Shown here in pieces: positions 170 to 54,749 of a stretch of DNA of 64,000 nt. The notes beneath the pieces are model-generated. The model made no database searches. It was not told where the DNA came from and saw only the letters and a program-made list of their open reading frames with translations. The position numbers and the translations under genes are program-made. How positions within the stretch are numbered: position 1 is the stretch's first letter; every line of letters begins with the position of its first letter. Origin of the DNA: Polytrichum commune (lineage: Eukaryota > Streptophyta > Polytrichopsida > Polytrichales > Polytrichaceae); the NCBI GenBank assembly GCA_950295325.1, contig OX485804.1:24924001-24988000 (forward strand), written 5' to 3'.

Positions 170-1146
170 ATGACAAGGCCATTATCGTTTGAAAAAGAAT
201 AGTGCAGTATTATTGCTACAAAAGGGATGGCACACGGAAAGTAGCCAAATGGCTTGCTATTAGTTAATCTAGTGTTGAGGAAACCCAAAAGAAGCGTCAA
301 CATGATGCGAAACTATATGTAGGAAGAAGACCAAAAGTGATTTCAAACCACTTGAGGAGGGCATGTGTGAGAACGGTGACAATTGGAGCATTCAATATTG
401 CCATGGAGGCATGTAGATTAGCTAGGCATGATATTGCAATGATATATGTGTTCAATTAATGCAAAAAAACAATCAATCCAATAGGTTTGGAGGCTTATTT
501 GAAGAAGAAGAAGGAACCTCTCCTTTCAATGAAGAATATTCAAGCTCATTTAGGTTTTGCCAAATCTCACGAGAATTGGATTGTTGCGGATGGAATCAAG
601 TGGGTTATTTTTTTAAGGTTAATTATTTATGCTTAGATGGTCATTATTGGTGTTGGGCTCGAGATGAAGAGGGTCTTACATATCGAACAATGAGGAAAAC
701 ACCAAAACACTAAGGAGGTTCATTAATGGTTTGGGGTTGCATGAGTGCAATTGGACTTCGTTTTATTTGCAAGATAGAATGTAGAACGAATCAATATCTT
801 TGTCATGAGATCTCTATGGCCATTTCTTGAAGTATGGCATGAATGCATCTAGAGTCTTTTTTGAACGTGACGATGATCCTAAACATATAGAAAAACAATG
901 AAATAGTGGTTATCTAAAAGACCTTTCAATGTTTTAAAATGGCTTGCTCAATCACCCAACCTAAAGCCCGTAGAGCACCTATGAGCAACACTAAAACAAA
1001 AGCTCAATCGTTGTCCAACACCTCCAAAGGGTCCTCTAGAATTATGGGAGCACGTGTCTGAGACTTTCCATTCTATCACTTCCATAGAATATGAGAAGCT
1101 TCATGTAGAGCATGTTGCGAAGAATTATTTAATCCTTATTTAAGTG
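170..1146 (+). pseudogene. Tc1-like (DD34E) transposase relic
   Basis: Seen: translated fragments in shifting frames line up in the order of a Tc1/mariner transposase. A basic stretch GLEAYLKKKK and the block NIQAHLGFAKSHENW lie near 484-579. DGHYWCWARDEEGLTY follows at about 639-690, LMVWGCMSAIGL at 721-760, and ERDDDPKH at 863-886. WLAQSPNLKPVEHL occupies 941-982, followed by a proline/leucine-rich tail to about 1146. The second catalytic Asp (869-871) and the Glu (973-975) are 104 nt apart, one base short of the spacing a D-34-E protein needs. The first catalytic Asp is not recognisable, and several stops and frameshifts break the gene. Known: Tc1 transposases cut and paste at TA sites in the nucleus. 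Inferred: a long-dead copy; no terminal repeats were identified and the 5' end may lie outside the window. Family call is fairly sure, the exact lineage is not. Confidence 0.8.
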
Positions 1147-2600: not shown

Positions 2601-5600
2601 TTAATAGCCTAACACCATTCTTTGTGTATGATAGTTTAAACATTGAGAAAACTTGGATGACTTTGTGTTGATTCACATAAACTCATGGTTTCGTTTGCTT
2701 TACTTTACAATAAGTCTATTGTTGGCCACAATACCTCCACAATATCCACACCACTCTTTGTGGGCTACGTAGATATGTATTTGGAATCCTACATGGTCAA
2801 AGCAATGCTTATTTTCCATGGTTAAAGGCATTTTTTCTTCCCATCTCTATAAGGTAACACTAAGAAAAAAAACACAAACATGCATTAAACTAAACCATAC
2901 AAGTTGGATTCAAACTTGTTTGAATTATACAATAGATCATTAAAAGAATTGCATTTTTGGTATGATTATGATATACTAAACATATAACCACATAGTCAAA
3001 GTTATTTTGTTAATCAATCCACAACATATATATGAGGATAAATATGCATGGTTATCATATACCCGTAGTGGAAAACATTGACATAAATATGTTAAATTTG
3101 ACTTGGAGCCAAATGAAATCAAATTGTATCAATAATACTAAACATGTGGCAAATGGTTTCTTGCATGTCTATCCATTGTTTATCGACATTGTGGGATTGG
3201 TTGTGTGCACATGATTTGCTAGTATGATTTTATTTGTTATTTGTTATTTATTTATTTTAAATTTGTTTGGCGCACATTGAGAATTCAATTGCATTTGCTA
3301 TTATGATCTTATACGTAGCCAACAACAATTGCAAATGGATGAATTAGATGTGAGGTGCACATTGTTGCAATGCCAGGGTCAAGTGATGCATGCGAGTCTC
3401 TCCATGCAATCTTTGCATGCATATGGGTTTCAACGATGTACACATTCTCCCCCTTGTTGTATTGTGTTAAATTGTCTCAAGTCGTGTACTTTAAATGTTT
3501 TTGGTGAGCCTCACGATTGTTGCCTTCATGACCATGTGTTTGCGTCATGGCATGGCTCCTACACTTGGCCATTCTAACCCATAAGGTACAAGCATTTGAT
3601 TGACCATGTTACCAAGTCCTTGCATGGGCTCATGCCTCCTCCTACTTCTTATATGAGAAAGAGGCTCTTGCTGAAGCTTGCACCATGTACAAACAATATG
3701 ACAAGATCTAAGACTATGTGCATTTTAGTGTCGTGTGACAAGCCTATGATTACACATTCCCCGTATTGGGTGGTCACTAGTGTATGTGATGCAATGTTGA
3801 TAATGATCACCACATGCTTGTTTTGACTGTTTTGTTAATGGAGTATAGTTTAACTAGCATTCAACAACATGTATGGTATGATTATCCAATATCATTGATG
3901 GACCAAGGAGGATTGGCGGAGGATGAAATTTCATCCAAATTTATATGGTTTCGTGTTGACAAGGTCACGATGTTTTAAGGACACATTTGAATTTACGACC
4001 CAATTGAAACAAACCAAAAAATGACTAATATATGCATGATGGTTTGCTCTTGATAGTGGTATCATCCTTACCATGCATCATGCATACTTAAAGCCCTCCA
4101 TGTTCAATACGAGGGTCAACCTATGTGAGTATAGATTAGTTTTGTTATCAAATATATGCACATTGGAATGAGGTCATTGTCTTATTTATCCGTTTTGAAT
4201 GTTACATGAGTGGATTTAGCGAATTGTACCTTGAACTTTAGAAAATAAATGAATAAAGTTCAATATTTTTTAAACTCCGAGGTTGCTTTGAACAATACAA
4301 GACGCCAACATAAAAATTTAGTGTAAAATACAAAAATCTCAAACAACAAGTTTGTGCAATTGAACATTTTGTAACTCAAATAAGTCAATTTCTAGTTTCA
4401 GAATAGACATGCATTCACAACCCACCCTCAAGCTTCAATATGTTGACCACCAATTCTCTTTATCACATTTAATGACACTTCCATGTGGATGGGAGGTCAC
4501 AAATTTCTTTGCATTTGTTTCACCAACTTGGCCGAGATGCGGAAATACATAAAGGCCTTCTTCTTGGGAGTCCTTTGTTTGCATACATTGGAATGCCAAG
4601 AAGATTAAACCAATACAAAGGGTGGATTTACATTATGGTAACAAGTCCATGAAACTAGGGTTCCAAATTGCCCCTTAAGGGACCCTACTTACTTATAGAC
4701 TCAAATATGGACCAAGATTACATATTAGTTTCTCAAACCATGATAGCTATTTTCTTGAGTGTCAACCATCAAAATTTTGGCAAAAAAGTGACGCTATATT
4801 ATCTTTTAGGAGATTCACTCACATTGGTGGATTATGTGATGTAGTATATTGGTCCTGGTGCATCATCCTTTGCCTTTAAATGACCATATACATCTAAACC
4901 ATATTCATTGGCTAATTCTATATATATATATAAATTTTACTTTAAAACATGCAAAGGCGGACACATGGTTTTTTTTACACATAAGGTTGCCGCCTTATTG
5001 TGTGCAATTCCATTCCCACATACATCCAATCATCAATAACAAATTATAAAGATTGTCATAGTCAATTTTCACCTTGTTAAGTGCTCTCTCTCTCTTTATA
5101 TATATACATTTTGAACACGTATATTTTTGGTTTTAGATGTTAACAATGAACCTTGTCATTAAATGTAGGTGTCCAATTAAGAAGGTTGTGTATCTTACTA
5201 TTTTGGACCCATACTGCTCTAGTTTGTTGCACTTACACATGTGAATCATGAATCACTTTAATGTGGTTTCTAGTGGTCCAAGCTTGCCAACTCATTGACA
5301 ATGTCCACCATTCATGGGATGGTTAAACGATGAGACGATGGCCTCACCACCGAGTTGTCTATTGCATGAAATAACAAGAAAACGGTAGAACCGTGAGGCT
5401 ATGTCCTTTGCTATGAAAGACTACAATTGTAGCTAATTACTTTGCTCATGCCAATCCATGGCTATTCACTATACCAAACCTTTCTTGGATTTTGTGCACC
5501 TTCTTCTCAAATACGGGTCAAGGATTGAAGCTACTCATTTCTCACCCGAAATTTTTAAAATAAAAAAATCAAGAACTGCTGAATTAACTATGGTTAACTA

Positions 5601-6453
5601 GATTTCTTTCAATGCATTTTAGGGAGCACTTGTATATGTATATATATATATAAACTATAGTTAACATCCACATTACATAAAGTGGACCAAAAATAACAAG
5701 AACAAGTAACGTCCAAGTGTGAACACAAAGTGGTTAGGAAATTTGCTCTTGAAACAAAGACGTTGATGCATAGTCTCTATCCTACAGACAAAGCCAATAA
5801 ATAAAAAGAACATTGGGTGCTCTTTTTGCACCGGCGTGAATGAAAGCATGCTATTTCAACACGTGATCAAATTTTACTAAGCTTCAGGGTAGGGTTACTT
5901 CCATCCTTTCAGAAGGTGGACTCCTTTTAATATGTTTGTGTCCATTGCACAATGGATACCGTAGATGATTAGTTGACGCTAGGCAGCCAACTTTGGTTCT
6001 CCCAAAGTTGCTGGGGTGAAAAGTAAACCATCGCTAACTTATGAGCTCAAACACCAAAGGGCTCGGGTGCACGTGGGCTACAAAGTTCCCTTTTCAGGCG
6101 AGATTTGGTTCAACTATATGCAAGTGACAAAAATGAAGACAAATCCGGGATGCTTCTAATTGGATGCGGCTCGGGTCGGGTTAGCCCAATTCGACAATAC
6201 GGACATTGGTATGTGAGGTTTAGGGTTTAGCCAAACATTTAATTAAACTCCTAGAGAGTATCGTACTTGCGTTGCTTTTGTCGTGTGTTTTCACATGTAA
6301 TCGCTTATCGAGTCATTAGCAAACTACTACAATAGTAGGCACCTTTTTAAGCTCTTTCGAAACCTAGGCGTGTGGCACTTGTCAACATGTTTTTGGGTTA
6401 AGGTACACGTGCGCTTAAAAGCGTCGTCAAATAAAGAACCAACGTCAATAAAT
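2601..6453. other. No gene recognised
   Basis: Several ORFs of 60-82 codons between 3032 and 5049 have no recognisable motif and overlap low-complexity sequence; I read them as chance. Short TA microsatellites lie near 4920-4931, 5098-5105 and 5636-5652. A short piece near 5165-5195 resembles the dispersed repeat B consensus but is too short to call. Confidence 0.5.
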
Positions 6454-6697
6454 CCGATGTGAATTTGAGAACGTTGGCCCTACCCTGCTCAAGCATCTTC
6501 GTGATGCAGGGTGGGGTTTACTGCCTACCTTGTGGTGGGTGGGCTCATGGCTTCCTACCTACCTAACTAGTTCCCCCCCCCCCCCCCCGTCAAGTAGAGA
6601 GAGGATTTCACAGTGGGATCCGAACCGCCAACCACTTCATTCGGAAATGGGTACCTCTCCACGATCACCCAATAGTTTAGGATCATTTCGGACCTAG
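6454..6697 (-). mobile_element. SINE-like repeat, copy A
   Basis: On the minus strand this segment aligns end to end with 26848-27062 on the plus strand, at roughly 80% identity by eye. Both contain a Pol III box-B-like motif (CGGTTCGGATCC here, CCGTTCGATTCC in the other) about 70-80 nt from the 5' end, preceded by a weaker box-A-like TGGGTGATCGTGG. Both end at CTCAAATTCA followed by a few bases. Size (about 215-245 bp) and the internal promoter suggest a tRNA-derived SINE. A 16-base C run (6573-6588) lies inside this copy, on the 3' side of box B. Target duplications were not resolved. Confidence 0.55.
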
Positions 6698-7264
6698 AGC
6701 ATCATCAACTTTTTATTGCCAACTACACCTATTATTTTGCTTTATCATTTGGAGTCACATGTTGCTATAAGTTTTCCCAATGACATCATTTTTTACATAG
6801 ATAATATAAATAGGTAGTATGCACATGAAAGAATATAACATAACTTAGTTGGCAAAACAAAACCTTAGCAAGAAAAGTTACAACAATGTGTAACTCCAAA
6901 AATGGTTGACTGAAATAATAGGTGTAAAAGGTGTAGTTATGGATGTAAAATTTTGCAAACTATCATTGTGAATGGATCACGTCTAATCTAGATCGGTTGC
7001 ATCCAACGGATGTAGAGCTAGGTTTGCAGTGGTTGTAGAAGTAGGTTCACAATACAAATGTATGTAAGAATGAGCCCCCCCCCCCCCCCCCACTCAACAA
7101 GAGAAGGCCTAAACCCTAAGACGACTATGCGGACTTTTGTGGGTCACATACTAATCTACTATATTATTATTTATACATTCATAAATGTTCAATCCTCACA
7201 CTTTTGCAGGGCTACCATAATTTTATGGTTTTTTGGTCACTTTGGTAAGGTACATCAGTTGAGA
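6698..7264. other. No gene; 17-base C tract
   Basis: AT-rich spacer with a 17-base poly-C run at 7075-7091. The 69-codon ORF starting at 7058 runs across this tract and is not believable as a gene. Confidence 0.5.
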
Positions 7265-7692
7265 TAAACTTTTTAGAAGTGACATTTTAAGGCACACATA
7301 TCTTAGTACGCCAAAATGCATGGAGGTTTAGTTGTTATAAAGAAGAAGTTTTCTGCTTCAATGAAGTTTGAAGATTGACATGATAATTGATCAAGGAAGA
7401 TGTGCCTCATTTGGTGTTTGACCTTGAATGGACACCCATATTTTAGTGGTGTATAGTTGGGTGTGAATTGAAGAGCATACATCAAAAGACATGTGTTGAA
7501 AATATGTTGGACTACGTGCTCAGTATTTGTTAATCATTGTAGACACTATTGGGGGGGGGGGGGGAAAGGGGGTATATGATCATTTAATAACTCCTAGATC
7601 TTCACTTTGACAATGACTAAGACATTCATACAAGCTCCAATGATTTTGAGAGCAGTGGTCATGGTCACGATTTGGATTTGCTAATCATCTCA
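7265..7692 (+). repeat. Dispersed repeat B, longest copy
   Basis: The longest of at least six related segments. Its right part (7485-7692: a phrase near GACTACGTGCTC, a poly-G tract at 7551-7564, then ATATGATCATTTAA and TCACTTTGACAATGA) recurs at 60700-60911 and 63185-63390. Its left part, read on the opposite strand (GGTGTCCATTCAAGG), recurs at 25590-25770, 30745-30960 and 32120-32290. Copies are strongly diverged. No terminal repeats or coding domain were seen, so the class is unknown. Confidence 0.55.
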
Positions 7693-9275
7693 CACTAAGC
7701 TTAATTACAAATTTCATATCCACAAACAATAGGTGGAGGGAGAAATGTGTTTGTTTAAGATCCACTTACCTTATAGGGTTGAAAAGATCCCTAACTTTGA
7801 CCTAAATTTCAATTTCAACCCTCAAAAGGAAAATAAAAAGGAAAAGTTACATTATGCTCAACCCTTTATTGCCTCAACAAAGCACGAGTTGCACAATGGA
7901 GGGAGATAATTCTAACTCACCACCTTGTATCATGGGTTGAGATTGGGCTAAGGATTCGTGGTGTCTATGTAGACTCATGTGTTGTGAAGGTGAAAACGCA
8001 ATGAAAAATATTATAACATGTAAATGATTATTTATAGATAAAAATGACTTTATAAATAAAGTCAAAAACCCCAAATTAAAATCATGGAGTCGAATTGAAA
8101 TGAATTGGGCCTTAATCTTGTAGGGGGGCTTCTTTTTCACTAGAGCCCCTTCATTCATGATGGATAAGTTTATGTAGATGCCACAAATCACAAGCCTTGA
8201 AATTGTGTTTGTCACAAGGCAAAAAAGGGACCAAAATCAAGATTTTTCAACTTGGCTAGTTACTTGAAAGACAAATTTACAACATTACTACGCCAATGGA
8301 CATGGATAATTTATTAAATATATATCATTCTCTTACAAAAGTGTCATCTTGTATTTAATAGTCTAAAGTATTGTGAATAAGAATGGGTTCTAACACTCAA
8401 ATGTGAAGTCCATAATTCCAAATGCGAGGTTCACATCTTTAGTTCTCAAACCTTATTGAGAGCAACTCCTAAATCCTCAGGGGTTGTACACTTCAAGGCA
8501 CTTACATGCAATGCCACTTAATGAGCATGTTTAGTTATCTTTAGTAATTCACAAATCCTGAAGGTGCACCATTCATTCATAGCATGTGTCAATTTCAATA
8601 TCAATACAACTTCATACAAATTCTGGGTGGACAAGAGGAGGAATATACATACAAAATAATAGCTAAGAAATAGAAATAAGTGTATATACACTATGTCAGA
8701 GTTTATTTATAAAGAGTAACAACATATATATGAGAAAAAAAACTTGCAAAAATAAGGCTTCTGACATTGCATCTCATATTATATCTCAAGTGGTAGGATT
8801 CCTCCCAATTTTTCTCAATGATTAATTCTTACTCTAAACCTCTCACCCCTCCTCCCTGGAGGCCTCAAACCAAACCTCAACCCTTGGGTTTTGGACAAGC
8901 GATGATGGTAGATGAGCCATTCATAGACTACATGAAATGAAGAGATGTTGGATACTTACGTGTAGCTTAAGAACTACCTAAGTTTCTATAATCTCCTAAA
9001 AAAGAAAGGAGAATGACAACTACGGTCTTATTGTTGCTGTGAATTATGTTGTTCCTTAATTTTTGAGTTGGTCTAAGTATATTTGTAAACCCAAAAAGGC
9101 CATTACAAGAATTAGAATACTCTTGCCACCTTGAACATGTGCGGAGAAGCTAACATGCACTCAACTCCTCCAAGGGCAAACCCTTAGGTGCTCATATTGT
9201 TAGTTGAAAATATCCAGTTCACCTAAATTTACCCCCCCCCCCTCCCCCTAATGATTGGGTGCCCAATATGTGGTA
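7693..9275. other. No gene recognised
   Basis: A 113-codon minus-strand ORF (7874-8215) is the longest here, but it has no recognisable motif and a biased composition. I leave it uncalled. An 11-base C tract lies at 9232-9242. Confidence 0.45.
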
Positions 9276-9497: not shown

Positions 9498-10010
9498 TAG
9501 TCCTATGTATATTACTAGTTTGACATGTGTCGTCCCAACTTGTTGTACCCATGAATATAAATTGATATCATGGATCAACCCAACCCCATATACCCCATGC
9601 AACCACATGCCCATGTGTACCCGCCACATGCATGTATGCCCATGCCCATGCCCATGCACATGTCCATAAGCCCCCGTGACCCACCACCATGCCATGTCAC
9701 CACCTTGGCTCCATGCATGCCACCTCTTTTGGGTTTCTCCAGCATATCCACCTTTTGCACTTGTACTCCCCCAACCTTTCCACATTTGTTCCTTTTTTTT
9801 TTTTGATCACATGTCTAGTTTGGAGTGGGGAAATCTTTGACATTCAACCGTTGTCCTGTGGAAACATTTACATTTTTTAGGCGAGAATGATGGACCAATA
9901 ACCTCACCACCACCACCACCACCACCATGCCTTTTGTTGTGTATAGACCTAACCCATAGTCATAATCAATACCCCTTATGTGCACCCACGTGCTATAAGT
10001 ACAAAAATCA
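9498..10010 (+). repeat. Tandem duplication, unit 1 (513 bp)
   Basis: Unit 1 of a head-to-tail duplication. Unit 2 begins directly after it at an offset of 513 bases. The two agree over their whole length, differing by point changes and by copy number of embedded microsatellites (ATGCCC near 9646-9657, CAC at 9905-9927). The ORFs in this block, such as 9358-9669 plus and 9462-9785 minus, are products of the microsatellites and differ between units, so I do not call genes. Confidence 0.9.
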
Positions 10011-10510
10011 TAGTCCTATGTATATATTACTAGTTTGACATGTGTTGTCCCAGCCTGTTGTACCCATGAATATAAATTGATATCATGGATCAACCCAACC
10101 CCATACACCCATGCAACCATATGCCCATGTGTACCCGCCACATGCATGTATGCCCATGCCCATGCACATGTCCATAAGCCCCCCGTGACCCGCCACCATG
10201 CCATGTCACCACCTTGGCTCCATGCCTGCTACCTCCCTTGGGTTTCCCCAGCATATCCACCTTTTGCACTGCTACTCCCCTAACCTTTCCACATTTGTTC
10301 CTCTTTTTTTTTTTAGTCACATGTCTAATTTGGAGTGGGAAAATCTTTGACATTCAACCATTTTCCTTTGGAAACATTTACGTTTTTTAAGCAAGAATGA
10401 TGGACCACCACCACCACCACCACCACCACCTTTTGTTGTGTATAGACCTAACCCATAGTCATAATCAATACCCCTTATGTGCACCCACGTGCTATAAGTA
10501 CAAAAATCAT
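10011..10510 (+). repeat. Tandem duplication, unit 2 (500 bp)
   Basis: Second unit of the duplication that starts at 9498. It is shorter because it has fewer ATGCCC copies and lacks a few bases beside the CAC repeat. It ends at ACAAAAATCAT, directly before a 13-base C tract (10514-10526). Confidence 0.9.
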
Positions 10511-11811
10511 ATGCCCCCCCCCCCCCAAATTTTGCAACCTTGTTCCTCCTAGACATTGCCTTCTCTGATTTTGTCATCAATGATTGTGTCAAATGTTGTG
10601 AAGGTCGAAGGAACTACGATCCTTCATAAACTCTTGCATGCATTTGTCAAGTCATTGTTGTTTTTTATTCCAACTCTCAAACTTTTAAACTCATTGGAAA
10701 TTAGAGTGATATTTGTGAATTATCATGCAACATCAAGTGTCAATGCCACTTAATGATTGACAAACAGTCAATGTAGGTTGATGATGAATAGTGGGCCACA
10801 CTTAATTAAATGCCTAGTGTGCTTAGTATTTAGAATGATTCCCCTTCACCCTCAACTTATTATAGTTGGTTTCCCAAATTCATTAATGTGATCTCCTCAC
10901 ATGTCATGATGCCATTGTTTTATCAATTTACTCAAGCATCATCACCAAAAATTCTTGATGGGCAAGGTGTGAATGAGGAATTACACTCAATCTTTGTGAT
11001 CAAGATGATTAACTATGCACTCATGTGGATATCTTTGTGCTAGATTGGTCTTGATGAAATGAGTTTACCTTGCATTTTTTATTGTGGAAAAACAAGAAAG
11101 AACTACATTTTTGAGAAATTAGGAGAAAAAACTATTTTGGTTGAAATGATAACTTCAATCTATGATTCAAAATTCTTCCTTTGAATTTTCTAAAAGGAAT
11201 ACACAGGGAAGTGAAAGTGTGCACCGTCAATTTGAATTTACGCCCATCATCTAAAAGTTTCCCCTCCCTCCCCTCCTTGTAATTGTGGCATAAAGCAAAA
11301 AAAGAAGAAGAAGCAATATGTCAAAGAACATAACAATGTCTCTTTTCAAATCACGATATTGCTCATGCCATCTTTGTCCCCCTCAAGCCCCCCCCCCCCA
11401 TTAGAATCTACTATGGTATAGATGTATATAATACATAGGTCAAAGTCCCTCAAGGTTTTGCTCCATCAAAGATAAATGGTGTCATGAAATGCATTTGATG
11501 TTCGTGGAAGGTCATTACAACATTAACAAGGAGGCAAATCTCCTTGCAAGTGGGTTTTGTAGGTATTATAGATCCTTAGCAATTGCTGTGTCACCCCAAA
11601 CCAAACATGCTTGATGGAAGACATTCAATATCAATATGAAAGGCATTCATCAATTGGTCAATAATTTTTACAAAATTTTGTAACGATGCCCTCAAATTTA
11701 TAATGAATTCAAGGAATGTGAAAACCCAACTTCAAAATATTGAAGGTCATGAAATCTATGTCCAAAACCAAATTTAATTTTTTACCTTTTGAGCAATATT
11801 TTTAATGATAA
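10511..11811. other. No gene; contains a GGGCCACAC motif
   Basis: No coding domain. Near 10770-10830 lies TTGATGATGAATAGTGG followed by GCCACACTTAAT, which matches 17157-17200. A 12-base C tract lies at 11388-11399. Confidence 0.5.
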
Positions 11812-11990: not shown

Positions 11991-13129
11991 CGATGTGATG
12001 TTGATATACTTTTCCATTATGATGTTTGAAGAATTCTTATGCCTTGTAAGTATCCATTTGCAAATTGTTGTGTCCTCTACTTGTAACATGTTGACCTTTC
12101 ACTATTACTAATATATCACTAGGGCAAGAGTTCCTAGTATTAAATATGCCGGGTGTCTACATTGTGGCTTAGTTCTTATCCTTATCACATACAAACCCCA
12201 TGCATCAAATGTAATGAAAAAACTCAAGTGCTTTGCAATAAACAAGCGATTCTTCGAACACGCTCCATTGCTATGTTGAGCCATGCCCACTTTAAGAAAC
12301 TCCCTTTGTTTACTCAAAGGGCCTGCACTTAGCACGTAATTATTGAGTCAATTTAGAATAAACCGAGCCGCATTCTTCATGTGCTCACGATAGAAGTGAG
12401 AAACAATTGCCCTATTAAGGTTCGTACCTTATATTGGAACACCTGACCAAGGTAAGTTCTAGTAACCTTAATATGTGAAAAAGAGGTTAAAAAATGGTTA
12501 AATGTACTAGGTAAAATGCATTTGTATGGGCAAGATATGGTAAGTTACTAATATATTAACATGTGTAATTTTGTGTTATTGCCATGCTCAAATTTATGAT
12601 AAAACTAAACATGCCCGATAAGTTTTGGGCAATGCTTGAGAGAGAGAGAGAGAGAGAGAGATCCAAATGACTTATTTGCTTGTAGTTTTTTTGGAATGCA
12701 TTCCTCTCTCCTCCCTCTCACAAGCAACATCTTTCCTTGTGTGTTGCAAAATTTACGATTTAGTCCATGTTTGTCATTTACTTACTACTCCAAAATTAGG
12801 AAATGTCTATTAATTGTCCAGCAAGAAAACTTTAACTTTGCGATAAGTAGATCTTCTCATATTTTGTTAAAATGAGGGACTTTGTTCATTCAACTATGTA
12901 TGGAGTTGTCTTTCACAAAATACTTGTCCCATAAAAAATTTTGTGATCGAGAATTGTGTGAGGTCTACGTATCAAACTCATGTTGAGTTGGTTAAAACGT
13001 GAGTTTGAAAGTGTATCCATAATGTTAGCCAATTTTCTCGAGGCTTGAAATAATTTGCTTAAAGAGTGATGTCGAGCTACCAAAACCCAATGTTTTAGGT
13101 TGTTGTACTAGAATGGGTGGGCCAAGCTA
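11991..13129. other. No gene; AG microsatellite
   Basis: Spacer with an (AG)n microsatellite of about 24 bases at 12638-12661. ORFs at 12108-12335 (minus) and 12636-12875 (plus, beginning in the microsatellite) have no recognisable features. Confidence 0.5.
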
Positions 13130-14264: not shown

Positions 14265-15212
14265 TCACCGATATCCTGCATAATGAATCTCACAATTGGC
14301 TCTTGATAGCATTTTGTTTTGCAAATCCCTTTCACAAATTGCAATACTTGAGGGAATGACAAACATTTTTTGCCAAAGTTTCATGGGATGCGGCCAATTG
14401 GTATACCACTCATTGAAGCCTACACAAAATTGCCATGCCTCGTACAATTATTTATTTTCACATTCATGCCTCAAAGTTTCTGCAAGCTCAAGCAACTCCA
14501 CTCTACTTGTATCACCTTCAATTGCTGTCAATCCAAAGTTTATGCTCAATCTCTCCAACCATTGCTCTGACATAGTTACACAAACTTCTTCATCACTTGG
14601 ATAATACTTTGGACTATAAAGTTTTGATTTGTTGAAAACATGTAAATTAGGAAACCTTTTGTTCAAGCTATCCACAATTTCTTGCACATACATAGCTCCC
14701 ATCATCTTGCATTCTTCTAGTATGTCCTCCCGATCAAAATTTTGTTTGAGATACATAGGATGATATGTGCCTTCAACATCATCATTTGCCCTCCATCTTA
14801 ACACACCATCCACCCATGCTTGAGACAAAAATGGACCAAAGTTCTTGGTCGATCGTCCAAAGTTAGGTCTGAGACCAATTAAAAACTATCTCTTCAGACT
14901 AGAAATTGATGAATCCAAAGTGGATCCAATTGATGAAATATCAACCAAGTCATATTGAAATTTTCGATATAATTTATCTAGTTCCATCAACACATCCACC
15001 ACAAGATGAAGCATAAATTGAAACCAAAAGGTTGTAGCTTGATGATACCAATAGGCATCCTCCACTTTGAAAGCATCCAACCTTGAAGTTCGAGACTTCG
15101 TGAAAAACCTCAATTCAGTAAAGAAAACTTGAAAGATCACCTCACACCAAATTATCATTGCATGGGGTTGGCCATCGGGTTCATTGGCATTACGAACGGA
15201 CACTTTATTCAC
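14265..15212 (-). pseudogene. hAT-type transposase relic (ZNF862/DUF4371-like)
   Basis: One minus-strand frame runs from 15212 to 14265, interrupted only by an in-frame TAG (14886-14888) and TAA (14448-14450). The first block (15212-14889) has LVVDVLMELDKLYRKFQYD and DLVDISSIGSTLDSSISSLK, typical of the middle of ZNF862-like hAT-derived proteins. The second block (14828-14451) has YVQEIVDSLNKRFPNL and LYSPKYYPSDEEV. The third (14447-14268) has MFVIPSSIAICERDLQNKM, matching the hAT C-terminal dimerisation region with its Cys-Glu-Arg core. Known: hAT transposases excise DNA in the nucleus and dimerise through this tail. The N-terminal BED finger and the first catalytic block are absent. Inferred: a truncated, decaying copy. 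Family confident, activity excluded. Confidence 0.78.
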
Positions 15213-15475
15213 GCCGGCCCCTTGTAGACCGGAGTTTCTCTCTCTCTCTCATTGCATGGGGAGGCACCAATCACTAGTTACAAGTAAACTGGTTGAGTTT
15301 GAGGAATAACTAGTCAAAGTTCAAGATTTTAGGAAAAACCCGCAATTTAATAAAGAAAAATCTAAAGGTCACCTCACACCAAACTATCAATGCATGGGGA
15401 GAACATACCACTAGTTACATACAAACCGGTTGAAGTTCAAGACTTCAAGAAAAACCCCCAATTCAATCATTTCAG
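15086..15475. repeat. Local partial duplications beside the hAT relic
   Basis: The segment 15086-15172 (GTTCGAGACTTCGTG to CATTGCATGGGG) recurs at 15319-15401, and its first half again at 15437-15475. Shared text includes GGTCACCTCACACCAAA and TGCATGGGG. A piece of the hAT relic has been copied locally upstream of its 5' edge. The intervening 15176-15240 block with a CT microsatellite matches 39776-39853. Confidence 0.65.
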
Positions 15476-18402: not shown

Positions 18403-20028
18403 TAAACACCATAAGCGATGTAGTGGTTCATGGACAATTTCAAACACTATTCCATAAAAGGAATGCTTCTATAATTAATATCTATTAGATTATTATCGTA
18501 ATTCAACATGAACCCATAATTCAAGCTCCACACCTTCCATTTGTAAACCAAAGAATATATCAAACCTTTAACATACATTTTGTGATACACCATTGGTTTT
18601 GGTCATTTAAGGGTTAAGGTATCTCACGTGGCCATGTTGTGGGCATTGTCAACTCTATACAAATATTTTTTTACACACATTGTTGTTGAATATGTTCAAG
18701 AGTTGTTTCATCTACACTCATATGTGCAATTAGGTTGCCTTTGCGTATAGGTTGTCTTTACACCCATGCAAATTATCTTTGGTCAAATTCATAGTACAAA
18801 AACTTACAACCCATATGAGTTTTTGTATAGCGACCACAATAAATAAATAATAAAATTACTTGTTTTATTTATTTACCGTGGCAACACTCACTCAGACCGT
18901 GTGCAATGTTGGTGATTTGGCATGACGCAACCCAATTGCACATACCAATGTAGTTAGCAATCATAAAATCACGAAAGTTGTTGTTGTGATTATTATGCTT
19001 GTAGTAGAGATGCAACTGTTGTAAGAGGTCAAAGTGAAGATTTCTCATTATGTAGATATTTATATACTCAAACAACCACACTCTTCAATTATGTTGGCAT
19101 TTGTTATCGTTCCAAATAACGAACCCGGTTTTCAATCTCCACAATCACACCCATAACGATATCTACATTGTGAACACATGAACCAATGTTATTATACCAC
19201 GTGTCTTTTGGATATCCGTTCTTGACTACAAAGCCTTGCCATCATCACATACCATTCAAAGTTATAGGCGTTCGGAACTTCGGGTTAAGTAGAGTAAGGC
19301 CCACATACATAGCACCTCAATTTATACTTAACCTACTCCCCTTATCGGTCGATCACACACTACACTACTACGCAAGTGCTTGGCTATTTTTAGGATCAAA
19401 ATCGCTCGATATTCAGACCACATGCTGATTAAATGCCTTGACTTGTCAACTGCTATCTGACCTTTAAAAACAAGAGATTCTTTGTGGATTTTATTCCACG
19501 GGCCTCCTCCTCCTCCTCCTCCTCCTCCTCCTATATATAAAGATGAGTTTTTATGTGGAAGAAATTAAAGATGCAAAAAACACACGGCCATCCTCAATCA
19601 CTCATTATTATCACGACGTAACTTCATTAACTTATTAAGCCTTGAATCTCCGCACTAGATATCGGCCAATGCCAAGGGCCTCCGAGCCGGGCCATGGAAT
19701 CTAAGTGCGAGGGGATATGTTTACCACCACTAGGATAAGCGGGCCTTCAACGGACATTTTGAGCTTTGCACCCACCTCTCGTAGACTCCAAAAAAACATG
19801 GAGTTGATTAGTGTGAGATGATTAGTGATTTCAAATGGTGCTCATAACCGATTTTTTCTTTTCTTTTTCAAAAGTTGGAGGATTTTTATGTATATTTGGT
19901 ACATCTTCAATGTGAAGATTCTCTTTCTTATTGAACGATCATATGTGCCTCTCCAGTTATGTCGACTGTTGAGAATCTATAATGGTTAACAAATTTGGAG
20001 CACTTGCCTTATGGAGGTTTTCTTCTTG
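18403..20028. other. No gene; CCT microsatellite
   Basis: Contains a (CCT)n microsatellite at 19503-19532 and an A/T hairpin near 18839-18874. No coding feature was recognised. Confidence 0.5.
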
Positions 20029-20459
20029 GGGCCACTTCACACCCGAGCCAAGAGCCGTGACCATGAAGTTGTGGGAGCCCAAAAGAAAGTGTCCAAAGGT
20101 TGTCCCAAGACACCTCCAAAATCATGTAGTGTGGTCACAAGTCCTCAAGTGTAGTGTGAAGTCATATGTGACCAAGCACTCAACCAAATGCAGATTCAAT
20201 GGATTTCTATTCATATGGACCCTCACACATGATTAAATAGAATAAATCAATGGTTGTGAGTGTTCGAAGTGCCATGGTCTCCTAGTGGTTTTGTGTTAGG
20301 CCTACCTCCAAGAGGTGGACTATGAAAATAATCCAAGTGACCATGAAACATGATCCATTCGATGCCATGTAGGAATCCATGTAGGCTTTACACCCATCTT
20401 GCATTCACTTACTCCGTTGGTCCCTCAAGCGTAGTGTGAAGCGAACTTGGTGTAGTGCA
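20029..20459 (-). mobile_element. Truncated PIF-like MITE, second family
   Basis: Matches the reverse complement of 23404-23885 from the terminal GGGCCACTTCACAC onward through CCTCAAGTGTAGTGTGAAG, AAACATGATCCATT and GGTCCCTCAAGCG. Homology stops at about 20459, so the far terminal repeat (roughly 70 bp) is missing. The 84-codon ORF at 19982-20236 falls partly in this repeat and is not a gene. Confidence 0.75.
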
Positions 20460-23403
20460 GTTTACACATTAGTATTGAGCAAGACAAATAGAATTGGTGA
20501 CACTAAATACATTGTTTAGTGTATGAGTGCCTATTAAATTACTAGTGCAACCATTACTACCTACCATGGTCAACTATGCTCTAAACTTTGCAATGTCACA
20601 TTTGTGTCAACCAAAGTGCACATGATATGAAGGATTTACGCAATGTTAACATGGACGCGTGATAAAAAGAGGATTAATATAGCATATAACATTATGTGAT
20701 ATTATAATAATTTCAATGATGATAACATGATGCGTGTGAGCATGTAGTTTGAATTCATTGGTGGTTTATTTTGATGTCAAAACTCATGATATATGGTAGG
20801 GAAACGTGACCATAAGGAGTGCGATTTAAACTAAGCACATATGTTCCCGAGGGTTTTTTGGGATGTAGGAGAAGGAGTGACATTAAGGAGGTTGTTATCA
20901 CAGAGTTTGGAGTGTATTCATTTCATCGTGTGGTGAAACTTAGCCCCCCATATATGTGGTGTAGGAAGTATTAGGCCATTGAATGCTTTGACTCCTTACG
21001 CTTCTCGCAACCGAAGGTCAAAAGTTGGTGCTAATAGTATATAGTTGTCATATGTATAGATAGGTTGATAGGTACCTATCACCATGCGAGGACGAAATCC
21101 TCGCCAAGACTCAATAGGAGGGGAGGGGAGGGAGGGGGCTTTTAGGGCTAGGTAATGCTTTTAATACTTAAACCCTAAATGCCCGTGGTTGCGAGCCGTT
21201 TTCAGAGATATATTTCTCAAGGCGAACTTTTTTCCCCTCTTTATATATATATATATATATTTGTTTCTTGACATAATAAAGTTGTGCACCATCTATAGAA
21301 ACCAGTCGAAAATTTATATTGGTGAGTCTAAGATATGGATTTTGAAGTGGTTGGAATTCTTAATTTTTTCTTTGTGACAAAATTATCTATTTTGGGAAGT
21401 AACAATGTCCGTGACATGTATATATTTGCTTTGTTTTTTGCACCAAATTATGTAACTCTTATTTCTAGCCAACCATATTGAAGATCAAGTGCTTTCGATA
21501 CATCTTGGAATTCTACTATATTTTGAAGGAAAATGCTTGTGAAATGATCCTCACCGAACCACATACCAATCAAACACAGGGGTCCAATCAAGAAAACGAG
21601 CCACTTGAGATCCATCTACCTTAGTGTGAATTGTTCTATTGATTTGCGGTTCCAAGTTATTAGGATGAATTCAATTCAATCCACCGACACATTCCACTTA
21701 CCAACATGTGGAGTTGGGTGAACATGTTTGTTGTTGTTATCCAAGTCGCCATCTTACCCCCCACCCCCACAAAAATCTACTAAAACATCAACTATGTATA
21801 CTATTATTTCCCCATATACAATCATCACAAAGTTAATGTTTCAATCGATGCCATGAATTTGTCGTCACTGCACTAATCATCCCAATCAGTGCATGTTAGT
21901 ATTCATCGTCACCACGCTGTAGAACTATTCATCGAGAACGTACTATTATTTCATCTCGTAGCAAAGTCATTTATCGCCTATAATGTCCGAACCACCTATT
22001 GAACTTTTGGTAGTAAAAACTGAACTCCCGAGTAAGACGTTATTGCACCACGTAACTCCAAATAGCAACAACACACTAATCGGAAGAGCCGGTGTGATCC
22101 CACCAACGGACGAGCCTCTTCATTGTAACATTAACATTTGTCCCTTGGTAAAGTGATGGACGAGCGGAGCTTATGAGGTGGTAAGTTAAAAGCGGAAGCA
22201 GAAAGGCTTAGAGTCCATGGCATCTATCTGTCATGGGCTACAATAGATATGAGCTCCATTGTAGATTGAGGGGTCCTGTTGAGTTACAGCGTGTCCCATT
22301 TGACTAAGTTGGGGTCTCACATGCTATTTCAAGCGCAAAGTGAGATGACGTTTTTAAAAGAACCCCATGCATGATGCTATGCATTTAGTCCGTACAGTTT
22401 GACCACCTCAACGGAGGAGAGTGTAGCTCGAGGGCGCATGTTCACATGAGTATCGAGCCGAGTTTTTAAGTTAGTCAATCTAGCTAACCCATGCATCGAA
22501 ATCAAAGATCACGAATTCATCAAGCGAGTTTGAAGGTAGCGTGATTCATCAAACACCGCCTACATTCGACAGGTTTTAGTATGAGCCCCCCCCCCCCCTT
22601 CGCACATGAAGCTCGATCGGAGAGCAGGATCGGATCGTAACCTCTCATGCATCCCACATACAGACTTGACCGACCCTATACATTGATGCCCAATCCATCA
22701 TCTTTAATGACCTGCACTACACTAATTCAGGGTTTTTGGGGAGCTAATTCGGGAGTTAATCCGAGAAAGAGTAGACGAAAATCTGGGACTCCTTGTGAGT
22801 GGGAGGAAGGAGGTTTGAATCTCACTCAACCGTGGAGTTAAACCTCAGACCTTGCTTGGTGTTCCTTGCACTCGACTCCAACCTTTATATATATGGTAAC
22901 TTAATTAGAAGTTCACACGGAACCTATGTTCGGGGAAAACCGACGGCTAGTTCATTATCAGCCGATGGATTTCTCCTCATGGCCGGTCCAAATTTCCAAC
23001 CATCGGATGGCAATCCGACTATAATTTCAATCCTCCGGCAATTAGCCGATGGACCAGAAAATGTCCCGGAAATGTAGCCGGAAATGTAACTCTGCACGGA
23101 ACTATCTCGGGGAAGTTCCGAAATCGAGGAGGAGGAGTTGGAGTTGTTGTTGTGGTGGTGGTGTTGTTGGTTTTCTTTAAGCAATAATAATGAGTGTGTG
23201 CTTACTTTCTGAACAGGAAGGTGGCTCAACGCTGTGGAGGAGTTGACAATGGAATGATGGGTTTCAAGGGCTCGCAATTATTGAGGAATTTGATCAAAAG
23301 CTGTGCGTGTGTTGGACTGAGCTGTAGCAATGCTGCTGCTGCTGCTGCTGCTGCATTGCGCGGGGCCTTCTCGACTTAACCCTAAGGTCGCCCACTTAGC
23401 TTA
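20460..23403. other. No gene; small repeats and microsatellites
   Basis: Contains a (TA)n tract near 21243-21260, a 13-base C tract (22586-22598) and a (GCT)n repeat (23331-23354). A 70-bp piece at 22708-22775 (CTAATTCAGGGTT to CGAGAAAGAG) resembles 27558-27625. Plus-strand GGTTTGAATCTC near 22811 resembles a Pol III box B, but no tRNA fold was found around it. ORFs at 22799-23077 and 22924-23277 overlap one another on opposite strands and have no recognised domain. Confidence 0.45.
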
Positions 23404-23885
23404 GGGCCACTTCACACATGAGACTGAGAGCCCGTGACCATTACACTTCAAGCACTCTCATTGGTGGAAAACGCGGAGCCGCTCCAAGTTCGCTTCTTCA
23501 CACGACGCTTGAGGGACCAACGGAGTGTGTGAATGTGAGATGGGTGTAAAGTCTACATGGATTCCTACATGGCATCAAATGGATCATGTTTCATGGTCAC
23601 TTGGACTATTTTCAACACCCACTTCTTGGAGGTAGGCCTACCATAAAACCGGGAGACCGCGGCACTCTGAACACTCACAACCGTTGATTTATTCTATCAT
23701 GTGTGAGGACCCGCATGAAATAACATTTGGTTGAGGGACCGGTCACATATGACTTCACACTACACTTGAGGGTTTGTGACCACACTACATGATTTTGGAG
23801 GTGTGTTGGGACGACCTTTTGACACTTGGTTTTGGGCTCTCACAATTTCATGGTCACGGCTCTTCACTCGTGTGTGAAGTGGCCC
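23404..23885. mobile_element. PIF/Harbinger-type MITE, 482 bp, TTA TSD
   Basis: Ends are GGGCCACTTCACACATGAG and its imperfect inverse at 23885, with similarity extending about 40 bp inward through GCCCGTGACCAT. The direct flanks are TTA (23401-23403 and 23886-23888). This is a full-length relative of the truncated copy at 20029-20459. The TIR is not that of the 444-bp MITE at 17959, but both share GACCATGAAG near their ends. No coding sequence. Confidence 0.85.
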
Positions 23886-23909
23886 TTAGCTTAACTTAAT
23901 AAGTTACTC

Positions 23910-24340
23910 CACCTCCCCCTCCCTCCTACAGTGGAATGTGACCTTTCTCCTTCATTAAAATTCATCAACAGGGATTTCACATGATATGCGCAGGGAAGGT
24001 GAATGAGTTTGTGTTATCTCTTAAGTGTTTTCATGCAGCAAACTTGTAATACCCCTCTTTCTATATTCTATGTAAACGTAACATGAGCATAAGCATAACC
24101 CACAACCAACACATAACCTAGATCCAACACTACATATCACGCTCATATATTTGAGCTAAGGTTGTCACTCAATTTATTTCACCTCCCTCGTACATTGGAT
24201 CATGCTCTTTCTCTTTGATTATGATTCACTTACGAGGGATTGATACGATGTGTGCGTGGAAGGCGAGTAAGCTCATAATTCTAAAGTTTTTTCATGCAAC
24301 AAACTTGAGTCCCCCTTTCCAAATATTTTATGTAATGTAA
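23910..24340 (+). repeat. Diverged tandem duplication, about 265-bp period
   Basis: 23910-24075 and 24178-24340 share a CT-rich start, a GGGATT-TGATATG block, TTTTCATGCA-CAAACTTG and TTTTATGTAATGTAAC (in the second copy), in order. The copies are heavily diverged. The PIF MITE lies immediately upstream. Confidence 0.6.
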
Positions 24341-33880: not shown

Positions 33881-34479
33881 ACCAAGGAAAAGGAAAGAAA
33901 AAATGCATGGTGGTGGTGGTGGTGGTGGTGGTGCACTCGTTGAAATGTGTTGCCAAATCAAAGCCCTCCATATCTACTACACTCATAGATTTGAGGACCC
34001 CCACCTAGCTACAAGTGGTTCTACCACGGTGAATATTTCGATCCATGTGGTTGCTATAGTCTAACCTCGTTAATATGACACCCGTTTATATGACACCCTC
34101 GATATTACAACACATTTTTGCGAGACCAAACTTTGTAGATCAAAACTCCCTCTTTTATGCGACTACGGCACTTGATGATGTTACATTTAGAATCTCCGTT
34201 TCATTGTATCAAAGAGGTAGTTAATGTTGAAATTCCTTTCATGCATGTTATGTACATCTAAAATACATCCATTTTCACTTGGGAACTACTTGGTGTCAGC
34301 CCAAAACTCTCACCTATGTGCGTCGTAGTCCAGGTGAGGGCTTGGGCTCACATACATTCTCTTTACCTACCTTAGCCCTTGGCACTGAGCTTCCCACACT
34401 CCAACACATAATCATTGAACACCCAACTTTTATTCAAATAGCACAAGGTCCAAGTATTTAGAAATACTCGTTGCTCCTG

Positions 34480-35850
34480 TGATCATTGTCACCCATAATC
34501 ATCCACCAAGCATCAACACCCACTCCAAACCTCAACCCTATAACAATGTGCTACTAAACTACGCTAAGCTAATTCCTAAGGCATTAAGCGACACCAATTA
34601 CACAAGTGGTTTGCCTACGCCTATCTCATTGATCATAACACTCACTCTCTTTACCCCTCCACTAGTTCATTAATTAACACTCCAACACCTACCCTAATTA
34701 ATCCCTCCTCTAATCACTACCTAATATCCCAGCCTCCCCTGGTCCATTAGCTCTGCATCCCAAAGTGTATCCGCATTGCCATCCACTGAGCCCCCTTGTC
34801 AAACTGAAGTACAGGTAATAGCTCAACTAAGACCCCTTAATCCTATGTATTCAAACTCCCAGCAGCAGACATGCCCTCGACCTTGCTGTCGGTGGCAGGC
34901 TTCGAAGGTCCTGGCTGCGGCCTTCTCACAGCAATAACAACCTCCCGACTGCACCCAACATTTTCCACCATCCAATTAATTCTCCAACCAGCAATGCACA
35001 AACGCTTGACTTTGAGGACGGAACTGGGAGGGATCATGAGTGTGATTCCAGCAGATAAATCTGTGGCTGTGAATTCCCATGCAGCAATGTGAATGGAAAT
35101 CTCTGTCTGGAGGTATCATGTTCCGATTCAGTCTGTAGGATGTGGGATGATGCCAGACACGCTGAATCCCCTGGAACCACCAAGGTAGTCCAAACTCGCA
35201 AGCACGGCAATGAACATGATTCCAAATTTTTCAGCCGCAGTGTCCCCTCCGCATTTCTGCCCTCGCCATCTGTGCAATGAATTCGGTGACTCTCCTCACC
35301 TTAGTGTCCCGAGTTTTGGGAGTTGGCATGGTGGTTGGTGCTCTCCTTTTGCACTCAGCACTGCCCTCCGAATTCAAACTCCCTCTATTCCCAATCCCCT
35401 TAGCATCTCAACCTGTTAGATTTTAGACAGCCTTCACCCCTGTCTCCTGAGCACTTCCGGAATGCAGTAGCTTACTTTTTTTTCCTTGCTATGAGCTCCT
35501 CGATTCTACTGCATCCCCTTTGGCCTTACTGGCTTGTGCCTGGTGTTGGCTCCCATCTCCTCTACACCATCGCCTTCTCACCCTCTAGTCGGAACTACCT
35601 CAGAGCCCCGATCTCACTTCGGAGCCCCCAACTCCCGGTGCTCGCCTAGCAGACCTGCCACCATCGCCGAAATCCAGCAAGAGAGCTCCTCTGTCGCCGT
35701 CACTCCCTACTGTCACAACCGAACGCCTCTCTCCTCCGATCCCAACCTCCTGAAATTTCCAGGGGTACAATACCCCCCTCCTAATACGAACACTCTACTA
35801 ACCTAGTTCGGTTAATAAAAACCCAGCCTCCCTCCTAAGCCTAAGTTCCA
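34480..35850 (-). other. C-rich segment with coding-like minus frames
   Basis: On the plus strand this block is C-rich and unlike its flanks. On the minus strand two open frames follow each other (35225-35034 and 35037-34843), with fragments such as LCIAGWRINWMVENVGCSRE. No domain was recognised. It interrupts the pogo-like relic, so it may be a separate insertion, for example the 5' part of a retroelement. No flanking target duplication was found. Confidence 0.35.
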
Positions 35851-36086
35851 CCCCTTCTATTGTTAACTAACTCCTAATCTAATTCCATCACCCATCAAGT
35901 GTCAAATACTAATACTCAAACTAATAATCAATCATAACTAAAACTTAATGCATAACTCTTTTCTATGGTTTTAAATTCATAAGTAGAAATTCAAATCCTA
36001 ACATTAACAGTTTTTAAGCTCAAAAGCACATGTGGGCCTTGACTTTGGGCTCACACTTGGGAACTTCACTTATCACTGGGAACTCA

Positions 36087-36320
36087 ATGAGAATTAGGAT
36101 TACTAGTGTAGATGTGGATGATGTTGCTCCACCTATAGTAAAGCTTCGTGATGCTAAACGTCATGCATCATTGTTGTTTAGTTTCTTATAAGAGAACTCT
36201 TTATGTTTTGATGAAATTATTAGTTTTCAAAAGCTAGTAGGGAATTTAGATAAGATGACAACCGCTAACTTAGGTAGGCAACACCATAGATCTTTGGACT
36301 CCTATTTCAAGAGTTATTGA
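36087..36320 (+). pseudogene. Pogo/Tigger-like transposase C-terminal fragment
   Basis: The plus frame reads VKLRDAKRHASLLFSFL, an in-frame TAA (36189-36191), then ISFQKLVGNLDKMTTANL and GRQHHRSLDSYFKS before a stop at 36318-36320. From memory of the family this resembles the C-terminal tail of plant Tigger/CENP-B-type DDE transposases, where a similar SFLxEN and LDKM block is common. The catalytic DDE core and the DNA-binding half were not found. It sits about 230 bp inside the right end of the 34.06-36.55 kb element, as expected for a plus-oriented transposase. Confidence 0.55.
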
Positions 36321-36553
36321 GAGTATAAATATATATATATATTGGAGTTGTAAGTTACTATTTCATACCATCTACATTGCTTTCATACCATCTACATTGC
36401 TTAAACTCGTTGTATGTATAATTTAAGTTCATATTACCTATATTTTGTACTCCCTCGATAATACCACAACTTTATGTCATTTGTCATGTTAATGAGAAGA
36501 TGACACCTTGATAATATAACTTTTTTTGTGTTTCCCAAACGTGTCATACTAAG

Positions 36554-44767: not shown

Positions 44768-45091
44768 TGTTGTAAAGAGAGAGAAATCAGGTGGTCAGAG
44801 CAACAACATAACGGTGCAAAAACAAGAAGTGAGTGTCCTCAAGAAGAGGCCTCCTTATATACTATATGTGAGTACATAGGAGTCATAAAGACTCTGACAG
44901 ATACTCCTGACTTCGTAGTTCAAACGGCGGCTTCCCTCCTAAATGCTCGGTAGTTGAGATAAGCATCCAGTTCCTCCTCGGACCTTGGACCAGGCTAATT
45001 AGAGTTGGAGGCTTCTAATTAAGCCTTTGCTAATCTCGAGGTTGCTACGTGGCTGCCTACAGCTAGGATGTAGGTGCCTACCTCTACAACA
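44768..45091 (-). repeat. 3' LTR of the copia element
   Basis: 324 bp, collinear with the 5' LTR with seven transitions. Its TATA-like box would direct any read-out transcript toward lower coordinates, into the AT-rich flank. Confidence 0.95.
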
Positions 45092-45102
45092 CTCCTCCTC
45101 AA
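45092..45102 (-). promoter_or_regulatory. Polypurine tract
   Basis: The minus strand reads TTGAGGAGGAG directly before the 3' LTR, the expected plus-strand primer for reverse transcription. Confidence 0.85.
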
Positions 45103-45176
45103 CCTTAGAGATGACCTCGTTAAAAACTCGACTAAGTAAAACCCAGTGGGATAAAACCTTAGTAAAGAAAAGAGTG

Positions 45177-46055
45177 TCACTCGTTGCGGTTAAGGTCAGA
45201 AAGTGCTCTCATACCTGTAGCCTCTACAAGCTTCTTGTGCTTATAGGCTGGGAGTGCTTTTGTTAACATATCTGCTATGTTATTTTCAGATTCTATCTTC
45301 CTAATTTCTATTTGGCCATTCTCAACTAAGTCTTGAGAGAAATTGAATATATGAGGGTTAATATGCTTTGTTCTATCGGCTTTGATAAAACCTGATTGCA
45401 TTTGCCTTACACATGAGGCGTTATCCTCATATATCACCGTCGGTTTTTCTTGAACCTTGATGTTGCATTGCTTAGTGATGATGCCTTCCAAAGTTCGTAG
45501 CCAAACCGCTTCCCTGGCAGCTTCATGGAACGCCAGTAACTCCGCGTGGTTAGTTGATGTAGCAGTTACAGTTTGTTTTACTGATTTCCACGAAATCGGG
45601 GCTCCGTCTCGGATGAATATGTATCCTGTTTGGGATTTGCCTCCAACCTCATCCGTGTTGAAGCCTGAGTCGGCGTAACCTGTAGTTTCTTGATTTTGGC
45701 ATTTCCTGTAAAACAAACCTAAGTCCTCGGTTCCCCGTAAGTACCTAAGTAAATGTTTTACTCCATTCCAATGCCTGGCAGTAGGGTTTTGGCTATGTCT
45801 AGCGAGCATGCTAGTGGCAAAACCAATATCCGGCCTAGTATGAGTAGTAAGATAGGTAAATGCCCCTATAGCCGTGAGGTATTTCTTTTTATCGATAACC
45901 TCCTCCTCCTCACGAGGATGATAGGGGTCATCCCTATTCTTACTTCTACCTATCATAGGGGCAGCCAATGAATGGGCTTGGTCCATATTAAAACTCTTTA
46001 GTAATTTCTGGATATATGTTTGTTGATGTAACAAAATACTTCCATCCTCAAAGTG
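45177..46055 (-). CDS. Copia pol remainder: RT end and RNase H (after TAG)
   Basis: The same reading frame as gag-pol, separated from it only by the TAG at 46056-46058. It continues the RT connection region (ILLHQQTYIQKLLKSF, TRPDIGFATSMLARHSQNP). RNase H follows, with Asp in TTGYADSGF, Glu in NHAELLAFHEA and Asp in YEDNASC. At the fourth position the common copia HxD appears as HIN in RTKHINPHIFNF. The C-terminal NIADMLTKALP motif closes the protein at a TGA (45177-45179), 75 bp before the polypurine tract. There is no strong start of its own, so it depends on readthrough or is silent. Confidence 0.9.
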   Translation of the reverse strand, partial: HFEDGSILLHQQTYIQKLLKSFNMDQAHSLAAPMIGRSKNRDDPYHPREEEEVIDKKKYLTAIGAFTYLTTHTRPDIGFATSMLARHSQNPTARHWNGVKHLLRYLRGTEDLGLFYRKCQNQETTGYADSGFNTDEVGGKSQTGYIFIRDGAPISWKSVKQTVTATSTNHAELLAFHEAAREAVWLRTLEGIITKQCNIKVQEKPTVIYEDNASCVRQMQSGFIKADRTKHINPHIFNFSQDLVENGQIEIRKIESENNIADMLTKALPAYKHKKLVEATGMRALSDLNRNE

Positions 46056-50197: not shown

Positions 50198-50217
50198 GAG
50201 CGATCATGTGCTGATAA
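50198..50217 (-). promoter_or_regulatory. Primer binding site (tentative)
   Basis: Two bases inside the 5' LTR, the minus strand reads TTATCAGCACATGATCGC. The TATCAG core matches the complement of the 3' end of plant initiator tRNA-Met. The remaining match is poor, so another tRNA or an internal tRNA primer site is possible. Confidence 0.55.
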
Positions 50218-50219
50218 CG

Positions 50220-50543: not shown

Positions 50544-50548
50544 GTTTA

Positions 50549-54741: not shown

Positions 54742-54749
54742 TCCTCTAC

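Follow-up and report, generated by a model that had tools for sequence, protein, structure and literature searches.

The window, by which we mean the whole stretch of 64 kb that was analysed, contains close to its left edge the coding remains of a Tc1-type transposase and, farther to the right, a copia LTR retrotransposon. The features are as follows, with the basis for each in parentheses.

170-1143, + strand: decayed Tc1-type transposase coding region, readable only with frame changes (frame translations, frameshift-aware score)
170-223, + strand: frame-2 piece of the N terminus, with a premature TAG at 200 (by eye, from continuity with the next piece)
220-612, + strand: frame-1 piece covering the DNA-binding region and the linker, with premature TAA codons at 265 and 457 (weak PF01498 match; Sleeping Beauty alignment from 508)
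600-622, + strand: where Sleeping Beauty has its first catalytic aspartate, in WSDET (alignments)
615-794, + strand: catalytic-domain piece, frame 3, with GGSLMVWGCMS, premature TAA at 711 (frame translations, alignment)
811-843, + strand: short frame-1 piece of the catalytic domain (read by eye; the aligner keeps frame 2, with a stop at 806)
842-895, + strand: catalytic-domain piece, frame 2, with DDDPKH (alignment)
892-1143, + strand: C-terminal piece, frame 1, with QSPNLKPVEHL, premature TAG at 904 and TGA at 982 (alignment, to 1020)
44768-50519, - strand: nearly intact copia LTR retrotransposon (Pfam, terminal repeats)
45180-49643, - strand: copia internal region, used as CAG/CTG control (shuffles)

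The transposase remnant opens with an ATG at 170, the start given in an earlier, sequence-only reading of this DNA, and closes with a TAA at 1141-1143. Frame translations place the three motif blocks named in that reading where it had put them, all on the + strand and each in a different frame: LMVWGCMS at 723-746 (frame 3), DDDPKH at 869-886 (frame 2) and QSPNLKPVEHL at 949-981 (frame 1). The second catalytic aspartate is encoded by GAC at 869-871, and the third catalytic residue, which lies in a QSPxLxPxE context and is encoded by GAG at 973-975, is E and not D. The gap between these codons is 101 bases, where 34 codons would take 102, so that the spacing is indeed one base short of DD34E, as had been noticed. 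Such a spacing would fit a DD34E ancestor minus one base, but the extent of decay would permit other ancestral spacings too. No aspartate is present at the site of the first catalytic D (~600-622), and hence the catalytic triad is incomplete: the D and E of WSDET fall in a two-residue gap of the frameshift-aware alignment and lie opposite other residues in the alignment to a read-through made by eye. Because the first catalytic aspartate is absent, the sequence is to be regarded as a decayed descendant and not as a working member of the Tc1 (DD34E) group.

The assignment to this group was examined with the catalytic fragment of Sleeping Beauty (178 residues) as the query and a frameshift-aware dynamic programme that aligns protein to DNA. 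Positions 1-1500 of the window gave a score of 195, with the alignment extending over 508-1020, while 82 other 1.5-kb stretches, representing 41 places read on both strands, did not exceed 49 (mean, 32.4; s.d., 4.1) and the highest of 60 shuffles of 1-1500 had 41. The catalytic-domain homology is thus well above all controls and not due to chance. In a tblastn search of the whole window with the same fragment, the relic was the only place matched at E<=1, in three pieces in frames 3, 2 and 1 with E values of 4e-7, 4e-7 and 8e-5. The three frames were joined by eye into a read-through of the relic, and in a phmmer search of the PDB its only distinct match at E<=1 was to Sleeping Beauty SB100X (E 6e-21). 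As this read-through was made by eye, the frameshift-aware alignment is the unbiased test. Support from domain models was slight: PF01498 (HTH_Tnp_Tc3_2) matched at E 0.011-0.015 with 16 bits, below its cut-off of 31.5, an IS630 model, falling well short of its cut-off, matched at E 0.081, and no DDE-domain Pfam model was matched by the relic. The N-terminal 137 residues had no PDB match at E<=10.

The sequence-only reading had called the relic a Tc1-type element, not a mariner, and this distinction holds. Searched against the PDB, the C-terminal half of the read-through matched SB100X at E 1.1e-16, while its matches to three sequences of the mariner Mos1 had E values of 0.26 to 0.53. A mariner of the DD34D kind was rejected on these values and on the E in third position. 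It could also be proposed that the remnant is a diverged plant DD39D mariner-like (PlantMar) element or a pogo element misread as Tc1, as these are the members of the superfamily that were earlier known from plants (PMC4054914). We consider this extremely unlikely. The third residue is E, not D, and its codon follows the second D codon after 101 bases and not at a spacing of 39; the disparity between the Sleeping Beauty and Mos1 values, obtained from PDB sequences, points the same way.

Two readings of the frames are available and differ in detail. The path drawn by eye runs through frames 2, 1, 3, 1, 2 and 1, with five changes and six premature stops (200, 265, 457, 711, 904 and 982). The path of the aligner covers 508-1020 only, runs through frames 1, 3, 2 and 1, switching at 571, 783 and 887, and meets stops at 711, 806, 904 and 982, of which the stop at 806 is absent from the by-eye path. 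Because of these differences, the number of stops in the relic is six or seven and the number of frame changes four or five. On either path the gene is broken many times and cannot yield a functional transposase. Such damage also bears on whether a Tc1 transposase could here have been domesticated as a host gene. The near full length of the relic is all that speaks for domestication; the multiple stops and frame changes, the missing first catalytic aspartate and a loss of CAG/CTG throughout (see below) speak against it, and we give this explanation practically no weight.

The ends of the element could not be found. Inverted repeats were sought between the left 180-200 bases and the sequence from 1121 or 1141 to 1440 or 1500, with shuffles as the control, and no significant terminal inverted repeat was detected there: the result with lax aligner settings was equalled by 271 of 500 shuffles, while a stricter aligner gave a 10-base match of 91-100 with 1170-1179, equalled by 185 of 1,000 shuffles, and a 27-column match, equalled by 303 of 1,000. 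Neither CAGT-type ends nor a TA target duplication was found around the relic within the window. As only 169 bases precede the ATG, the window may not reach the left end of the element. The frameshift-aware alignment detected no second copy of the relic within the 64 kb.

The base composition of the relic provides a different type of evidence. We compared the counts of CAG plus CTG with those expected from 300 dinucleotide-preserving shuffles of each region. The relic has 2 against 25.2 expected (0.08), the lowest shuffle having 15. CAG/CTG is its rarest trinucleotide relative to expectation, the next lowest standing at 0.55, and CTA/TAG is over-represented (1.50), with only ACG/CGT being higher (1.75). 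The flanks show the same depletion, with 0 against 6.8 expected (0.00) on the left and 5 against 44.9 (0.11) on the right up to 3000, and 3001-9000 has 31 against 145.3; there is no change of pattern at the edges of the relic. Depletion extends across the window, 50 of the 64 1-kb blocks having a ratio of 0.40 or below (0.00 at 63001-64000) and values of 0.9 or more being confined to 35-36 and 46-50 kb. Among 65 non-overlapping windows of 974 bases, the relic is one of eight with 2 CAG/CTG sites and three have 1, against a median of 6 and a maximum of 52, the latter in the copia element. For comparison outside this DNA, the ratio was 0.73-1.43 across 45 prokaryotic and viral loci.

A depletion of this type is what CWG methylation in plants may be expected to produce. 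CCG was reported to carry less methylation than CAG/CTG in four angiosperms; once methylated, CAG/CTG would be turned by deamination into CTA and CAA sites (PMC5221884). Whole-genome CHG methylation has been put at ~76% in Welwitschia (PMC8275611), and at 65-69% in Wollemi pine. From the pattern we infer a host plant with CWG methylation, and this lends indirect support to the earlier description of the genome as plant-like. The relic would then have been exposed to CWG mutation for as long, or nearly as long, as its flanks. An ancestor that was itself poor in CAG/CTG would weaken this argument, but such a coding sequence would be exceptional.

These data bear directly on contamination, which the sequence-only reading had named as an outcome that would count against it. 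An assembly chimera could have joined fungal or animal DNA to plant sequence near the window edge, and the relic does sit at the very edge of the window; in addition, the angiosperm Tc1-like matches of a 2014 survey are described there as mostly single copies, the majority of them fragmented (PMC4054914). However, the relic is as depleted in CAG/CTG as both flanks, and the pattern is continuous at its edges. The shared depletion argues for a long mutational history in common and makes contamination or a recent insertion unlikely, with the proviso that the CAG/CTG test cannot tell DNA of another CWG-methylating plant from that of the host. Overall, a chimera or contamination appears highly improbable to us. 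Fungal RIP converts CpA to TpA. In the relic CpA is in excess (1.25) and TpA is low (0.67), the opposite of the RIP pattern; this speaks against fungal DNA as a contaminant, and RIP was rejected as the source of the decay.

The copia element serves as a young control within the same window. Its terminal repeats, aligned without gaps over 300 nt, differ at only 7 of 300 positions, and on this basis the element is young. Its two long ORFs, 46059-49643 and 45180-46055, are separated by a single stop codon. The first has matches above the cut-off to RT, gag-pre-integrase and SH3-like domains and matches below it to the integrase core, gag and CCHC domains; the second has an RNase H match below the cut-off. 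CAG/CTG is present at the expected level in the internal region (144 against 141.3; 1.02) and is slightly low in one terminal repeat (9 against 11.9; 0.76). Part of the contrast between the internal region and the relic could be due to coding constraint, as most of this region encodes protein. The depletion seen across the window amounts to a base-composition clock for insertions.

The presence of DD34E Tc1-like elements in plants has been reported before. Liu and Yang described such elements in 2014 in a moss (PpTc1 and PpTc2) and in nine angiosperms, namely rice, birch, Brassica, hemp, barley, lettuce, poplar, pear and wheat (PMC4054914). A 2020 study placed the moss elements near fungal ones and not near other plant sequences, and suggested that this may indicate transfer from fungi (PMC7466625), and a superfamily phylogeny of the same year includes archaeplastids in its hosts for newly found members of the Tc1 family (PMC7325037). 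The statement in the sequence-only reading that DD34E Tc1 elements are mainly animal, fungal and protist is, therefore, outdated since the 2014 report (PMC4054914). Its main idea is sound but precedented, because moss and angiosperm DD34E elements had already been published. A search of open-licence PMC papers found none containing both 'DD34E' and 'gymnosperm', a search so narrow that it proves little. As similar elements in plants have been described, the relic is not new in kind: it is an old fossil of an already described kind of plant element.

Comparison with these elements, made by description, shows both likenesses and differences. PpTc1 and PpTc2 of Physcomitrium (Physcomitrella) patens share with the relic a Tc1-type DD34E transposase in a plant, the moss protein having 338 residues. 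They are young, with an average divergence of ~2.2% from the consensus, and are reported in 75 and 20 full-length copies (PMC4054914, PMC7466625), with CAGT ends and TA duplications, whereas the relic is a single decayed copy in the window without detectable ends. The angiosperm fragments resemble the relic in being pieces of DD34E transposase that are mostly single-copy and fragmentary (PMC4054914); the relic differs from them in having a compositional argument for old residence in a plant genome. Sleeping Beauty, an active element reconstructed from fish Tc1 elements (PMC7325037), resembles it in the catalytic alignment, which covers 178 residues with 34% identity to the by-eye read-through (SB100X, PDB 5cr4). 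In contrast to Sleeping Beauty, the relic is dead, is resident in a plant and lacks the first catalytic aspartate.

Taken from the sequence, the evidence indicates that 170-1143 is a real, old and dead Tc1-type transposon relic in DNA that is most likely from a plant. We think it very probable that a single copy of a Tc1-type cut-and-paste DNA transposon left this dead sequence, which has long been resident in the plant. By analogy with the family, the living transposase would have had ~325-340 residues, with an N-terminal helix-turn-helix region binding the terminal repeats and a DD34E RNase H-type catalytic domain cutting and joining DNA at TA sites. After insertion the copy would have been silenced; it has gained stops and frameshifts and lost its first catalytic aspartate. 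CWG methylation followed by deamination is the presumed cause of the near-complete loss of CAG/CTG that is observed, and residence in the plant lineage would have been long enough for the base pattern to become equal to that of the flanks. Entry could have been by vertical inheritance with loss elsewhere or by transfer from a fungus or an animal; given the precedent in moss, horizontal transfer is a plausible route. A more specific proposal, raised in the sequence-only reading and refining this account of a long-resident Tc1 remnant, is that a fungal-type Tc1 reached the plant lineage long ago by horizontal transfer. The closeness of PpTc1 and PpTc2 to fungal elements, and the transfer from fungi proposed for them (PMC7466625), favour it. 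However, the sole relative compared here was Sleeping Beauty, whose 34% identity is uninformative on closeness to fungal elements, and old vertical inheritance with loss would also give a patchy distribution. We would put such a fungal transfer at somewhat short of an even chance.

Relatives were also sought in viral contigs, genome contigs, phages and plasmids, and no eukaryotic Tc1 relative (animal, fungal or plant) was found there. Among viral contigs, one pattern match was obtained with the relic protein and 43 with the Sleeping Beauty alignment, none of which was a relative, and degenerate motif patterns gave 0, 5, 0, 1 and 0 stretches. Two motif patterns gave 0 and 39 matches in genome contigs, and tblastn of phages and plasmids gave no match at E<=0.1. 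No significant relative was present among the resulting 45 loci (5 + 39 + 1). With the relic the best E value there was 0.26, and with Sleeping Beauty it was 0.25; some weak matches to the latter, at E 0.34-0.73, fall on the searched motif itself.

Most of the evidence for Tc1-like elements in flowering plants consists of fragments, and these could be contamination. The CWG mutation pattern in the relic, as strong as in its flanks, is independent evidence that Tc1 elements entered plant genomes long ago. The compositional residence test is new here and a useful addition: the seen-to-expected ratio of CAG/CTG, with a young LTR element as the control, could help to tell resident foreign sequence from contamination without reads, and the count is usable on assemblies of CWG-methylating plants. 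We also entertain, tentatively and as rather unlikely, a very old Tc1 transfer, probably fungal, into a large-genome land plant other than a moss, for which a gymnosperm- or fern-like host is a guess. If this were true, the entry of Tc1 into plants would be neither solely recent nor limited to moss, and the age of the fossil would be readable from the almost complete loss of CAG/CTG.

In the remainder of the window, Pfam searches of selected stretches found only the copia element above the curated cut-off. ARAGORN found no tRNA and Rfam nothing at gathering scores; at E<=0.5 there were four weak sub-threshold Rfam matches, three of them at a GA/CT-rich stretch near 12629-12730. Long inverted repeat arms of 162 and 155 nt, which are 90% complementary and separated by 3-3.5 kb, lie at 20029-20441 and 23496-23885, possibly a long-TIR DNA transposon or an inverted duplication; no Pfam match was found at 20000-24003 on the + strand or 22500-23503 on the - strand. 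The loss of CAG/CTG is less severe at 34000-36500 (0.58 at 34-35 kb and 0.95 at 35-36 kb), a stretch with no Pfam match in six frames that is a candidate for an unmethylated gene or a recent insertion. There is a direct duplication at 9508-10511 with a period of ~500-515 bases and copies 88-100% alike, and at 14451-15248 on the - strand are adjacent ORFs of 145 and 120 residues with no Pfam match. GC content is 29-46% by 4-kb block, and in view of this range Welwitschia, with ~29% GC (PMC8275611), was considered an unlikely host. The two 4-kb blocks of 48001-56000 show strong strand asymmetry (GC skew, 0.14 and 0.24; AT skew, -0.14 and -0.23). Finally, poly-C/poly-G runs of ~9-17 bases, unusual in AT-rich DNA, occur near 6573, 7075, 7552, 9232, 10515 and 11390.
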